Assembly (NCBI RefSeq): GCF_003030465.1 | Contig: NZ_CP028339.1 | Location: 1,736,001 to 1,800,000 of the forward strand | Length of the DNA: 64,000 nt | Source of the DNA: Thauera aromatica K172 | GTDB lineage: Bacteria > Pseudomonadota > Gammaproteobacteria > Burkholderiales > Rhodocyclaceae | Direction: 5' to 3' | Shown: piece by piece, positions 4,554 to 45,448 of the stretch | Position numbering within the stretch: position 1 is the stretch's first letter | Layout: each line of letters begins with the position of its first letter | Notes under the pieces: model-generated | Told to the model about the DNA's origin: nothing | The model's database searches: none | The model's input: only the letters and a program-made list of their open reading frames with translations | Position numbers and translations under genes: made by a program

Positions 4554-6210
4554 GCTTGCGGCGGTAACGGTCGCGGTAACGCGCGACCAGCGCTTCGGTG
4601 CTGCTGTCGTGGTCGCCGGGGAGGGCGGCGGGACGGGCCGGGTCGAGTTCGCCCAGTACCCGGGCCGCCAGCTGCTTGCCCAGTTCCACGCCCCACTGGT
4701 CGAAACTGTTGATGCCCCAGATCGCCCCCTGGACGAAGGTGCGGTGTTCGTAGGCGGCGATCAGCGCACCGAGCGAGAAAGGCGTCAGGCGCTCGAGCAG
4801 GATCACGTTGCTCGGCCGGTTGCCGGGGAAGGTCCGGTGCGGCACCAGGGCCTGGATGCGTGCTTCGGCCAGGCCGGCGGCGCGCATCTCGGCTTCGGCC
4901 TGCTCAGCGCTGCGTCCGCGCATCAGGGCCTCGGCCTGGGCGAGCAGGTTGGCGAAGGCGATGCGGTGGTGGAATTCGTCCTCGGCGCCGGCCTCGAGGA
5001 CGCCGATGAAATCGACCGGGACCGGCTGGGTCCCCTGGTGCAGGAGCTGGAAGTAGGCGTGCTGGCCGTTGATGCCCTGTTCGCCCCAGATCACCGGGCT
5101 GGTGTGGCAGCCTACCGGCTGTCCGTCGGCACGCACCGACTTGCCGTTCGATTCCATCTCGAGCTGCTGCAGGTAGGCGGGCAGGCGGTGCAGGCGCTGG
5201 TGATAGGGCGCGATCAGCTGGCTGCGCGCGCCGAGGAAATCGATGTTCCAGATCGCGATCAGTGCCATCAGCACCGGCAGGTTGCGTTCCAGAGGGGCGC
5301 TGCGGAAATGCTCGTCCATCGCGTGGGCGCCGGCGAGCAGGGCGTCGAACTGCCCGGCGCCGATCTGGAGCAGGATCGGCAGGCCGATCGCGCTCCACAG
5401 CGAGAAGCGCCCGCCCACCCAGTCCCAGAAGCCGAACATGTTGTCGGCGTCGATACCGAAGGCGCGGACCGCGGCGGCATTCGTCGACACCGCGACGAAA
5501 TGGCGGGCGACGGCCGCTTCGTTGCCGGCATGGGCGACCAGCCAGGCACGGGCACTGCGGGCATTGATCAGCGTCTCCTGGGTGGTGAAGGTCTTCGAGG
5601 CGACGATGAAGAGCGTGGTCTCGGGATCGGCGCTGTGCAGCACGTCGCCGATCTGCACGCCATCCACGTTCGACACGAAGTGCAGGCGCAGCGCCGGGTG
5701 GGCGAGATCTTTCAGCGCTTCGCACACCATCGCCGGGCCGAGATCGGAGCCGCCGATGCCGATATGGACGATGTCGGTGATGCGGCGGCCGCTGTAGCCC
5801 AGCCACTGCCCCTCGCGCACTTCGGTGCTGAAGCGGCGCATGCGCGTGCGCACCGCCTCGACTTCGGCGCCGAGGTCGACGCCTTCCACCGTGCTCGGCA
5901 TGCCCGCCGGACGGCGCAGGGCGACGTGCAGCACGGCCCGGTCCTCGGTGCTGTTGATGCGTTCGCCGGCGAACATCGCCGCGATGCGGGCCGGCAGCCC
6001 TGTTTCAAGCGCCAGGCGCAGCAGCAGCGCGAGGGTGTCGTCGCGCACGAGGTTCCGCGCGTAGTGGAAGACGAGGCCGCAGGCGTCGGCCTGCAGGCGC
6101 CGGGCACGGGCGGGGTCCTCGGCGAACAGCGAGTTCAGGGAAAGGCCGGCAAGGGCGTTGCGGTGAGCGGAAAGCGCAGTCCATGCGGCGGATTGCAGGA
6201 GAGTGGGCAT
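4543..6210 (-). CDS. pgi: Glucose-6-phosphate isomerase
   Basis: Interconverts glucose-6-phosphate and fructose-6-phosphate in the cytoplasm. 555 residues, close to the usual ~550. Both PGI signatures are present: WDWVGGRFSLWSAIG and the C-terminal SFDQWGVELGKQLA, plus the sugar-phosphate SIS-type motifs GIGGSDLGPAMV and VASKTFTTQET. The start is the ATG at 6210 (MPTLLQSAAW); the frame is open upstream to 6345 but lacks similarity. It is divergent from pgsA, with about 156 nt between the two starts. Confidence 0.96.
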   Translation of the reverse strand: MPTLLQSAAWTALSAHRNALAGLSLNSLFAEDPARARRLQADACGLVFHYARNLVRDDTLALLLRLALETGLPARIAAMFAGERINSTEDRAVLHVALRRPAGMPSTVEGVDLGAEVEAVRTRMRRFSTEVREGQWLGYSGRRITDIVHIGIGGSDLGPAMVCEALKDLAHPALRLHFVSNVDGVQIGDVLHSADPETTLFIVASKTFTTQETLINARSARAWLVAHAGNEAAVARHFVAVSTNAAAVRAFGIDADNMFGFWDWVGGRFSLWSAIGLPILLQIGAGQFDALLAGAHAMDEHFRSAPLERNLPVLMALIAIWNIDFLGARSQLIAPYHQRLHRLPAYLQQLEMESNGKSVRADGQPVGCHTSPVIWGEQGINGQHAYFQLLHQGTQPVPVDFIGVLEAGAEDEFHHRIAFANLLAQAEALMRGRSAEQAEAEMRAAGLAEARIQALVPHRTFPGNRPSNVILLERLTPFSLGALIAAYEHRTFVQGAIWGINSFDQWGVELGKQLAARVLGELDPARPAALPGDHDSSTEALVARYRDRYRRKLST

Positions 6211-6366
6211 CGCAGTGTCGCGGTTCGAAGCGGTCGGAGGTATGGCGTTCGGGCACAGATGGTACAGACAGGGGACGCCGAAGTGTGTACCTTCCGACGC
6301 GCGTCGAGGGGCTGATCGGCGCTGATATACTCGGAGCCCGATCACACGATTCCCTGGCCTGCCGGC

Positions 6367-6945
6367 ATGCCGCTCAACATCCCGAATGCGCTCACCTGGG
6401 CGCGTATCGCGCTCATCCCGATTTTCGTCGGTGTCTTTTACCTGCCCGACAGCTGGATGCCGGTGGCGAGCAAGAATCTGGTGGCGACCGCGATCTTCAT
6501 CGCCGCTGCGGTCACCGACTGGTTCGACGGCTATCTCGCGCGCGCGCTCGGGCAGACTTCGGCTTTCGGCGCCTTCCTCGACCCGGTGGCCGACAAGCTG
6601 ATGGTGGCTGCAGCGCTGATCCTGCTGGTGCAGCTGGCGCGGGTCGATGCCCTGATCGCGGTGGTCATCATCGGCCGCGAAATCACGATTTCGGCGCTGC
6701 GCGAATGGATGGCTCGGGTCGGCCAGTCGGCCAGCGTCGCCGTGGCCTACGTCGGCAAGCTCAAGACGGCGGCACAGATGGTGGCGATCCCGCTGCTGCT
6801 GTTCGATGCGCCGCTGCTCGGCTTCGATCTGCGCCTGATCGGCGAGGTCCTGATCTATGTCGCCGCTGCGCTCACCTTGTGGTCGATGGGCTATTACCTT
6901 CGCCGGGCGATGCCCTTGTTGCTGGACAGGGACGGGGCCGCCTGA
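6367..6945 (+). CDS. pgsA: CDP-diacylglycerol--glycerol-3-phosphate 3-phosphatidyltransferase
   Basis: Membrane enzyme that makes phosphatidylglycerol-phosphate, the committed step to phosphatidylglycerol and cardiolipin. 192 residues with several membrane spans. The CDP-alcohol phosphotransferase motif D-G-x2-A-R-x8-G-x3-D-x3-D is complete (Asp54, Gly55, Ala58, Arg59, Gly68, Asp72, Asp76). The N-terminal MPLNIPNALTWARI is typical. As in Escherichia coli, a tRNA cluster containing tRNA-Gly and tRNA-Cys lies directly downstream, which supports orthology. Confidence 0.95.
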   Translation: MPLNIPNALTWARIALIPIFVGVFYLPDSWMPVASKNLVATAIFIAAAVTDWFDGYLARALGQTSAFGAFLDPVADKLMVAAALILLVQLARVDALIAVVIIGREITISALREWMARVGQSASVAVAYVGKLKTAAQMVAIPLLLFDAPLLGFDLRLIGEVLIYVAAALTLWSMGYYLRRAMPLLLDRDGAA

Positions 6946-44121: not shown

Positions 44122-44811
44122 TCATTCGCCTTCCTGCCGCGGACGGCGGAAGTCGTCGGTGATCCACGCGGTGGCGCTCGCGCTCGTCAGCCTGAAGTCG
44201 GGGCGCACCCGCAGTTGCGCAAGTTCGTCGCCCGCCTCGTCGAATGCGCTGAGCACGGCATAGGGTTCGTAGTCGTCGGGAACGATATCCAGCCGGACTT
44301 CCCACTGCCTGTCGAGGGCGAACACCGTCAGGCGTTTGTGCAGCGCGGCATGGCGTTGCTGCTGGTGGCGCAGGAGCACTTCGGAGGCGGTCTTCACCAA
44401 GGTGTTGAACGCGGCCTGATCCAGCGGCTTGGGGTTCTTCTTGTCGCGCCCCATGGTCCACGGGCCGACCAGTGCCGGTTCGGGCTCGCCATCCTGGAGC
44501 ATTTCGACGGCCCAGCCGTCGTCATCCTCGTTCTTGATCACGCGTGCCATCCAGCCGGCGTCGTGCCACAGGCGGTCTTCGCGGATCGCCACCGGAGCGT
44601 CCGCCGCGGCGGATTCAGGGGTGGATTCAGGGGTGGATTCAGGGGCGGAAAGGGGATGAGTGTCGGTGGTCATGGGCGCGAGTCGGGCGGGGTCCGGATC
44701 GGATTTGGTCGGAGCCGGGTACGGCCTGGGAGCGGCCGTGTGTCTGGAAGATGCGGCACGCCGAGGAGTGAAGCCGCGATCGGCAGCAAAATCGAAGCTG
44801 AGCTGGCTCAT
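44122..44811 (-). CDS. Hypothetical protein, possible clamp-binding N-terminus, SOS-linked
   Basis: 229 residues that I cannot assign to a family. It begins MSQLSFDFAADRG, where QLSFDF resembles hexapeptide sliding-clamp-binding motifs (QLxLxF/L, as in Hda QLSLPL and Pol IV QLVLGL). A low-complexity region follows (Arg/Pro/Ala, then ESTP repeats around residues 56-65), and a folded region from about residue 78: EDRLWHDAGWMARVIKNEDD, VGPWTMGRDKKNPKPLDQAAF, TLVKTASEVLLRHQQQRHAA and WEVRLDIVPDDYEPYAVL. The start ATG overlaps the upstream gene stop by 4 nt (ATGA). It is the second gene after a LexA box. The family identity is unknown and the clamp idea is inference. Confidence 0.7.
   Translation of the reverse strand: MSQLSFDFAADRGFTPRRAASSRHTAAPRPYPAPTKSDPDPARLAPMTTDTHPLSAPESTPESTPESAAADAPVAIREDRLWHDAGWMARVIKNEDDDGWAVEMLQDGEPEPALVGPWTMGRDKKNPKPLDQAAFNTLVKTASEVLLRHQQQRHAALHKRLTVFALDRQWEVRLDIVPDDYEPYAVLSAFDEAGDELAQLRVRPDFRLTSASATAWITDDFRRPRQEGE
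44611..44646. repeat. Three 12-bp in-frame tandem repeats
   Basis: Three copies of GGATTCAGGGGT (the last ends in C) at 44611-44646. On the coding (minus) strand they encode ESTP-type repeats in the low-complexity linker. The 12-bp unit keeps the frame, so the copy number could vary without breaking the gene. Confidence 0.85.
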
Positions 44812-45080
44812 CTCATGCCGTCGGCGTGACCGGAATGCCGCTCCACGAGATCGGGCAGGCAGGGGGGGAGCGCTTGTGCCGCATCTGCCGGCGCGGTCGG
44901 CTCTGCCGTGCTGCGTGCCGCTGCAGATGCGGTCGACGGCTCGCTCAGGAGCAGGGGGTGTCCGCATTCCGGACAGACCCTGTAGGCGTGGATGCGGTCC
45001 GAGGCGAACTCGAACTGTTCGATGGCGACCGGCATGTGGCAGTACGGGCAGGTCTGGTGGGATCGGCGGCTGGGGGACAT
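44808..45080 (-). CDS. Small zinc-ribbon-like protein, SOS-linked
   Basis: 90 residues with two Cys pairs: Cys11-x2-Cys14 (CPYCHMPV) and Cys36-x2-Cys39 (CPECGHPLLL), a typical four-Cys zinc ribbon with the sequence EQFEFASDRIHAYRV between. The C-terminal half is Ala/Pro-rich and probably disordered. AGGAG lies 10 nt before the ATG at 45080. A LexA box is centred 27 nt upstream. It overlaps the next gene by 4 nt. I do not recognise a named family. Confidence 0.78.
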   Translation of the reverse strand: MSPSRRSHQTCPYCHMPVAIEQFEFASDRIHAYRVCPECGHPLLLSEPSTASAAARSTAEPTAPADAAQALPPCLPDLVERHSGHADGMR

Positions 45081-45099
45081 GATGGTGCTTCTCCTGTGG

Positions 45100-45115
45100 C
45101 TGTATTTTTATACAG
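45100..45115 (-). promoter_or_regulatory. LexA (SOS) box
   Basis: CTGTATTTTTATACAG is a near-perfect LexA operator: CTGT-N8-ACAG with an AT-rich core, the two half sites CTGTATTT and CTGTATAA being 6 of 8 identical. On the minus strand it overlaps TATAAA, a likely -10 element, 20-35 nt upstream of the zinc-ribbon gene start at 45080. The position fits classic SOS repression. Confidence 0.85.
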
Positions 45116-45223
45116 ATATGGAGAAGCGGCAAGTCGTGTCGATCAAGCGTGTACCGGCATGGCGCACAAGCCGGCTTCCATCCGGTGTCGCAGTGGAACA
45201 GGCCGTCACCCGCGCCGGCCCCA

Positions 45224-45357: not shown

Positions 45358-45448
45358 TGGCGGACAGGGCGGGATTCGAACCCGCGTTGGGATGTTATCC
45401 CAAACACGCTTTCCAGGCGTGCGACTTAAACCACTCATCCACCTGTCC
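45358..45448 (-). tRNA. tRNA-Ser(GGA)
   Basis: 91-nt class II tRNA with acceptor GGACAGG/CCTGTCC, anticodon GGA in CACGCCTGGAAAGCGTG, long variable arm GTTTGGGATAACATCCCAAC, T arm GCGGGTTCGAATCCCGC and an encoded CCA. Confidence 0.97.

Follow-up and report, generated by a model that had tools for sequence, protein, structure and literature searches.

A LexA-boxed zinc-ribbon gene and a neighbour with a clamp-type peptide form a probable SOS operon in Thauera aromatica

Two overlapping genes of Thauera aromatica K172 lie behind what resembles a LexA (SOS) operator, and a known family for either product was sought through Pfam, NCBIfam, PHROGs and PADLOC and rejected. The question raised by the locus is whether the pair forms a damage-inducible unit and, if it does, what such a unit may do. 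Coordinates in Table 1 refer to the window, the whole stretch of 64,000 nucleotides that was analysed; the first gene is termed ZnR and the second gene 2. The first-pass annotation had placed an SOS box over the likely -10 region of two genes of 90 and 229 residues that overlap by 4 nt, and this layout was confirmed, with all eight consensus positions of CTGT-N8-ACAG present in the box. The overlap reads ATGA, the box stands 20-35 nt upstream of the ZnR ATG with TATAAAAAT inside it on the minus strand, and a tRNA-Ser gene (45358-45448) is located upstream of the box. The cysteines of ZnR are C11, C14, C36 and C39, and the gene 2 protein begins with MSQLSFDFAADRG. A generic sigma-70 scan gave no promoter at its threshold; by eye, in the aligned promoters, the window reads TTGCCG-N16-TAAAAA, and of the 12 ZnR promoters printed, 10 have TTGC at a distance of exactly 17 nt upstream of the box.

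Table 1. Features of the ZnR-gene 2 locus and the basis of each assignment.
Feature	Position in window	Strand	Basis
LexA (SOS)-type box CTGTATTTTTATACAG	45100..45115	minus strand reads CTGTATAAAAATACAG	8/8 consensus positions; 27.5 bits
Putative -35 element TTGCCG	45127..45132	(-)	promoters aligned by eye
Putative -10 element TAAAAA within LexA box	45105..45110	(-)	inferred from promoter alignment by eye
ZnR, zinc-ribbon-like, 90 aa, first gene	44808..45080	(-)	ORF; family of 32 loci
ZnR zinc-ribbon core, C11 to C39	44964..45050	(-)	invariant residues, 25 aligned sequences
Gene 2, 229 aa, second gene	44122..44811	(-)	ORF; present in 18/29 Thauera genomes
Predicted clamp-binding hexapeptide QLSFDF, gene 2 residues 3-8	44788..44805	(-)	peptide type in 16/16 box-bearing relatives
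Gene 2 variable Pro/Ala-rich linker, residues 9-75, likely disordered	44587..44787	(-)	low pLDDT; length and sequence vary among relatives
Gene 2 conserved domain, residues 76-226, beta4-alpha-beta4-alpha	44134..44586	(-)	mean pLDDT 81.2; conserved core

The bare CTGT-N8-ACAG pattern is common by chance, at least one copy being found in 37 of 100 shuffled windows, and the T. aromatica genome holds 17 such places against 15 for a reversed control pattern. The significance of the box therefore lies in the conservation of the box together with its position, and not in the bare pattern. A weight matrix was built from Thauera lexA and recA sites only, each with at least 7/8 consensus positions, and a LexA-type box was called at 16 bits, a score reached by 1 in 152,440 windows of background. 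The training sites score 20.2-28.2 bits and the box of the window is near the top of that range. The threshold was reached in 30 of 32 ZnR promoters, the exceptions being L027, which scores 12.8 bits and offers no clear start, and L265, which lies close to a contig end and scores 3.8 bits, and gene 2 carries a box in 16 of the 18 Thauera genomes that have it (17.8-27.5 bits); the proposal that the box is conserved at orthologous loci was thus borne out. In a matched control, 32 of 422 gene upstream regions (150 nt, fetched loci) reached 16 bits, among which 26 lie at lexA, recA or umuD, four belong to an integron integrase or share the box of a neighbouring SOS gene (L244, L245, L086, L151) and two (L084, L094) are without explanation.

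The genus itself provides the regulator. lexA was detected in 27 of 29 Thauera genomes, and all eight consensus positions are present in the best upstream box at 26 of the 27 lexA loci and at 18 of the 25 recA loci read; in T. aromatica, CTGTTTAAAATTACAG closely precedes lexA (G000:C1:2310318), and CTGTATTTACATACAG lies 110 nt ahead of recA. Both sequence features expected of a LexA regulon member, namely a box at the promoter and a lexA gene with the same type of box in the genome, were found. Judged by sequence, the ZnR-gene 2 unit is real and very probably LexA-controlled. It might be argued that the conserved stretch is mainly a -10 element (TATAAAAT) and no LexA site at all, since TATAAAAT is the best conserved part of the gene-2 promoters and only four of the 16 Thauera gene-2 boxes are 8/8, the other 12 having one mismatch among the eight consensus positions, mostly with a weak right half. 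We regard this as very improbable: nearly every gene-2 box retains CTG and CAG as its outer trimers, the box of the window is 8/8 with 27.5 bits, and ZnR also heads operons of umuDC, a classical LexA target.

Among the 15 chromosomal places with the bare pattern, four are A/T-rich and away from transposases, namely lexA, recA, the ZnR operon and G000:C1:1926689; five adjoin copies of a single transposase, and six are not A/T-rich. The fourth place (G000:C1:1926689-1926704; L243:2690-2705) holds the extended palindrome TAACTGTATATAAATACAGTTA, which is perfect and precedes by 34 nt a minus-strand ORF for a hydrophobic protein of 52 aa (METGTTRSLIGMGLIAGLMIGTGHIGG...), with tRNA-like stretches by eye on the opposite side, and this ORF is a candidate for an SOS-induced small membrane protein. 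The five transposase copies (L034, L037, L043, L046, L047), presumably IS1595-like, have CTGTACGTACATACAG about 30 nt outside their start; this sequence, which fits the LexA consensus perfectly, probably belongs to the end of the transposable element. Both copies of the pattern on plasmid G000:C2 precede integron integrase copies (L244:2106-3562 and 5729-6595, boxes CTGTTTTTTTGTACAG); together with sul1, the plasmid looks from its sequence as if it carries a class 1 integron.

In a profile search of 199 genomes from the GTDB family to which Thauera belongs, ZnR was found in 24, spread over 16 of 68 genera, before G498 (L269) was left out for having its ribbon inside a longer protein; duplicate loci were counted once. 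The order yielded 3 of 389 genomes, all from the same GTDB family, and the class 4 of 350, which are T. aromatica and three weak matches (E 7.7e-6 to 6.8e-5). Strong ZnR matches are restricted to the GTDB family of Thauera. Against Pfam, ZnR gave 29 weak matches, the 25 best listed all being under the cut-offs; its eight NCBIfam matches were likewise under the cut-offs, and three relatives stayed under all Pfam cut-offs. Neither ZnR nor gene 2 matches an S24 peptidase or a Y-family polymerase, the domains looked for as marks of UmuD, UmuC or ImuB; genes of that kind adjoin ZnR in other genomes only. A plasmid or phage origin of ZnR was considered and rejected, as three members searched against plasmids and one against phages gave no match. 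No description of the family was found in the portions of the open-access literature on LexA/SOS and umuDC in related bacteria that were available to the search.

The genes that follow ZnR belong to different kinds. Gene calls and start codons in the genomes of relatives come from a codon-score script and reading by eye. ZnR comes first with umuD and/or umuC (Pol V) next in 9 of 32 loci; in eight of these umuD is next, followed by umuC in six, and one (G004) has the order umuC-umuD, whereas only a short umuC fragment is left in L260 and only a umuD remnant in L259. A UvrD/PcrA-like helicase stands directly after ZnR in 11 loci. Three loci have a 90-aa protein without a known family in this place, two have gene 2 (T. 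aromatica and its sister G025), and seven are without a clear partner. Profiles confirmed UmuC in L250, L241 and L080, UmuD in L254, L241 and L080, and, for L257 and L267, the helicase, whose reads end at the locus edge and score below the curated equivalog cut-offs; the other partners were assigned by eye.

Several further observations were made around these loci. The 90-aa protein (L031, L255, L256) has the pattern MFDVRVMRRDGVR...RLRLKSPWT..YAPVELYEPVL..AR.G.QLWRGYER, and an ORF of G017 (L084:6030), judged similar by eye, carries a 17.5-bit box of its own and is a further possible SOS gene. H-NS-like proteins (recognised by eye, K.RNP...W.GRGR.P.W) occur near ZnR in L080, L082, L083, L084 and L241, and some ZnR loci sit among mobile-element genes.

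The two-gene unit proposed at first holds in T. aromatica and one close relative, G025, among 29 Thauera genomes; G004 and G017 carry ZnR and gene 2 separately, both genes having a box of their own. Because T. aromatica and G025 are sisters, the pairing may be a single chance event. Of the two genes, ZnR is the finding of wider reach: a family of zinc-ribbon proteins with LexA-type boxes, standing first in repair operons.

Could ZnR be a translated leader that sets the translation of a downstream SOS gene and yields no functional protein? Its shortness, its variable C-terminal tail in the alignment and its overlap with the next start, 4 nt in the window and 4-11 nt in nine loci where both genes were called (L253 and G004 have a short gap), would all suit such a role. 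Seven residues typical of zinc ribbons (C11, P12, C14, H15, C36, P37 and C39; CPxCH...CPxC) are nonetheless invariant in 25 aligned sequences, and six of the seven loci without a clear partner still have a box of at least 16 bits, so that we find the leader reading decidedly unlikely and prefer that of ZnR as a protein with a function.

Gene 2 was found in 18 of 29 Thauera genomes (G000-G028), with a dN/dS of 0.24 between T. aromatica and G025; the ZnR genes of the same two genomes give 0.60. Within the first 12 residues, all 16 of the box-bearing Thauera genes encode a clamp-type peptide, either hexameric, QLSFDF (2), QLSLDF (1), QLSLEL (1) and QLSLAL (2), or pentameric, QLSLF (1), QMTLF (5), QMPLF (1) and QIPLF (3). 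The summed expectation from shuffled N-termini is 0.006, for a search pattern that was written after the sequences had been seen and start codons that were the choice of the analyst. Pentameric QLxLF and hexameric QLxLxL are recognised clamp-binding motifs according to the accessible text of PMC4564189, PMC3716654 and PMC4549789, and the form QL[S/D]LF is given in that of PMC3716654. The agreement with these motifs suggests that gene 2 probably binds the clamp.

For the remaining two Thauera genes, those of T. terpenica and G023, box and peptide alike were missing from every frame of the stretch read; the two features are thus together in 16 of 18 genes and jointly absent in two. Outside Thauera, the peptide was found in 0 of 72 gene-2 loci, a count in which the domain start was not located for L186, L223, L225 and L228 and only the first stretch was scanned, and three of the 72 (L235, L225, L198) have a box of at least 16 bits within 400 nt, none with the peptide. 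The earlier expectation that residues 3-8 would be conserved among homologues consequently stands for the box-bearing Thauera genes and fails for the relatives beyond the genus. As those relatives are without the peptide and 69 of 72 are without a 16-bit box, the SOS link of gene 2 looks like an innovation of Thauera. Separately, the extended N-terminus of L215 (Herbaspirillum sp. Sphag64) reads SQFALPF, which is clamp-peptide-like, but QFALPF is not a standard motif; no LexA-type box was seen in the stretch scanned there.

The 18 Thauera gene-2 sequences group together in the tree with a support of 94/83, just under the tree's own threshold, G023 being the first branch and T. terpenica nested. 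From this placement, box and peptide would probably have been gained together and lost together in T. terpenica; for G023, a second loss is as possible as a gain after it had split off.

This history bears on the view that the domain of gene 2 is a Burkholderiales housekeeping protein unrelated to repair, to which Thauera has added a damage-inducible promoter and an N-terminus that only looks like a clamp peptide. Short homologues are indeed widespread, with the domain family in 46 of 399 genomes of the order, and the 29 loci read there apart from our own show only two box matches, both G+C-rich, 7/8 and of the kind expected by chance. The joint presence and joint absence of box and peptide speak against such a coincidence, as does the alternation of the peptide between two equivalent classes of clamp motif while the linker varies freely, and we judge this explanation unlikely. 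Against the preferred reading, in which gene 2 acts at the clamp, it does count that the relatives outside Thauera are without the peptide and mostly without a box, so that the core function of the domain need not concern DNA damage.

The conserved domain (residues 76-226) was modelled with AlphaFold2 from 66 sequences with a mean pLDDT of 81.2 and a pTM of 0.48, and the predicted order of secondary structure, beta4-alpha-beta4-alpha, fits two beta4-alpha repeats. Its conserved core reads RLW..GWTARVIKN...GWAVEM..GEPEPALVGPWTMGRDKKNPKPLD, and several Trp, Lys and Arg residues are invariant, a feature that would fit contact with nucleic acid but is no proof of it. The best PDB matches in Foldseek are chains of human PURA (E 0.014 and 0.017, TM about 0.2, rmsd >20 A); the structure searches returned no significant relative, with a best viral E of 0.0034. 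Gene 2 has no Pfam family and no sequence match to PDB profiles, and 51 aligned members compared with profiles gave 11 weak families with no PUR or Whirly among them. A PUR repeat consists of four strands and a helix, two repeats making up a nucleic-acid-binding domain, as described in the available text of PMC2954813. The likeness of gene 2 to PUR is only a lead because of the E of 0.017, the TM of 0.23 and the rmsd above 20 A. The likeliest account of gene 2 is that of a protein induced in the SOS response and tethered to the clamp, with a possible role in single-stranded DNA binding for its domain of beta4-alpha-beta4-alpha (PUR/Whirly-like) layout.

An alternative in which the peptide does most of the work would make gene 2 an SOS-induced clamp blocker, filling the clamp cleft and thereby slowing replication or limiting error-prone polymerases in the manner of a checkpoint, with the domain as an anchor or oligomeriser. 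The position of the peptide at the very N-terminus, as in Hda, agrees with this, and a single Y-family polymerase was found in both genomes with the pair; that of T. aromatica is DinB by profile with the C-terminus KLQGSLFEAG, containing QGSLF, and that of G025 ends alike. The domain, however, is by far the most conserved part of the protein and is widespread without the peptide; being older than the peptide and most conserved, it must have a function of its own. We therefore hold the blocker to be possible, if on the unlikely side, and continue with gene 2 as a clamp-tethered protein with an active domain.

The polymerase setting of the genus was also examined. No LexA-type box was seen at the dinB loci of T. 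aromatica and G025, and neither genome gave a detectable ImuB, DnaE2 or UmuC. Elsewhere in Thauera, 24 of 27 genomes have at least two Y-family matches; the three that do not (G015, G024, G026) are fragmentary or incomplete. Of all 29 genomes, 25 show a weak ImuB-type match, which in 24 of them adjoins lexA, and DnaE2 is over its cut-off in 22 of 29, the other failures (G015, G019, G020, G024, G027) being incomplete or in pieces at contig edges. Strong UmuC-like matches in the genus are limited to G002, G004 and G014. In T. aromatica and G025, lexA is directly followed by a membrane gene that by eye is the one after imuA-imuB in G014, which looks like a clean loss of imuAB. An ORF of L085 is called ImuB for its place after a profile-confirmed ImuA and its PF00817 match (G014:C11:209046-209414), and has no NCBIfam family.

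As T. aromatica and G025 are close sisters, the absence of ImuB, DnaE2 and UmuC alongside the pairing counts as one event and provides no statistical link. Gene 2 as a strict replacement of ImuB was rejected, since an ImuB-type match is present as well in 15 of the 18 Thauera genomes that carry gene 2. A broader proposal would see ZnR as a common SOS adaptor of Rhodocyclaceae for executors that can replace one another, be it Pol V, a UvrD-like helicase or a PUR-like binder of single strands tethered to the clamp, the ZnR-gene 2 pair being the lesion-tolerance module that remains where ImuA-ImuB-DnaE2 and Pol V are gone; we offer it as a rather doubtful conjecture.

Comparison with known systems helps to locate the pair. 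The locus shares with umuDC (Pol V) a LexA-type box over the promoter and, in 9 of 32 loci, umuD or umuC behind ZnR; in contrast, the window is without polymerase genes and has gene 2 in their place. In the open-access text within reach of the search, ZnR does not figure among the umu genes. ImuA-ImuB-DnaE2 is SOS-induced and its ImuB, a catalytically inactive Y-family member, is predicted to act via the clamp (PMC11791113, in the text available). The likeness is that of an SOS-induced module with a clamp-acting protein, and the difference lies in gene 2 having no Y-family match. Hda likewise has a clamp-type hexapeptide at its extreme N-terminus, that of Thauera G008 starting with MKQLVLDI and thus having it in the same place, but gene 2 has no AAA+ match. 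To our knowledge, Hda is not an SOS gene. PUR-domain proteins such as Pur-alpha and Borrelia BpuR share two repeats of four strands and a helix with the prediction for gene 2, and differ in that the match is not significant and that no sequence match was found in Pfam or PDB profiles. We know of no PUR protein with a clamp peptide or a LexA box.

Overall, we consider it probable, from sequence and predicted structure, that the pair is a LexA-repressed operon in which gene 2 would be tethered to the clamp at stalled forks and ZnR would be a zinc-binding helper of SOS enzymes. LexA would occupy the box over the -10 element and repress ZnR and gene 2; upon DNA damage, active RecA would bring about cleavage of LexA and both proteins would be made, their production presumably coupled through the ATGA overlap. 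Gene 2 would hook onto the beta sliding clamp via QLSFDF, and its long flexible linker would hold out the conserved domain, perhaps PUR/Whirly-like, which at stalled forks may contact repair partners or single-stranded DNA and so alter which proteins gain access to the clamp. ZnR would belong with SOS enzymes (Pol V, the UvrD-like helicase, gene 2) and probably aids their assembly on damaged DNA.

LexA-controlled genes shape bacterial survival and mutation under damage, and proteins docked on the clamp decide the outcome at stalled forks. On the present sequence evidence, ZnR and gene 2 hint at a component of the bacterial response to DNA damage that has yet to be described. A LexA-boxed family heading operons of Pol V, helicase and a putative clamp protein would be a specific missing component, testable by single-gene deletion, and an older domain that probably gained box and clamp peptide together would be a clean case of recruitment into the SOS response.
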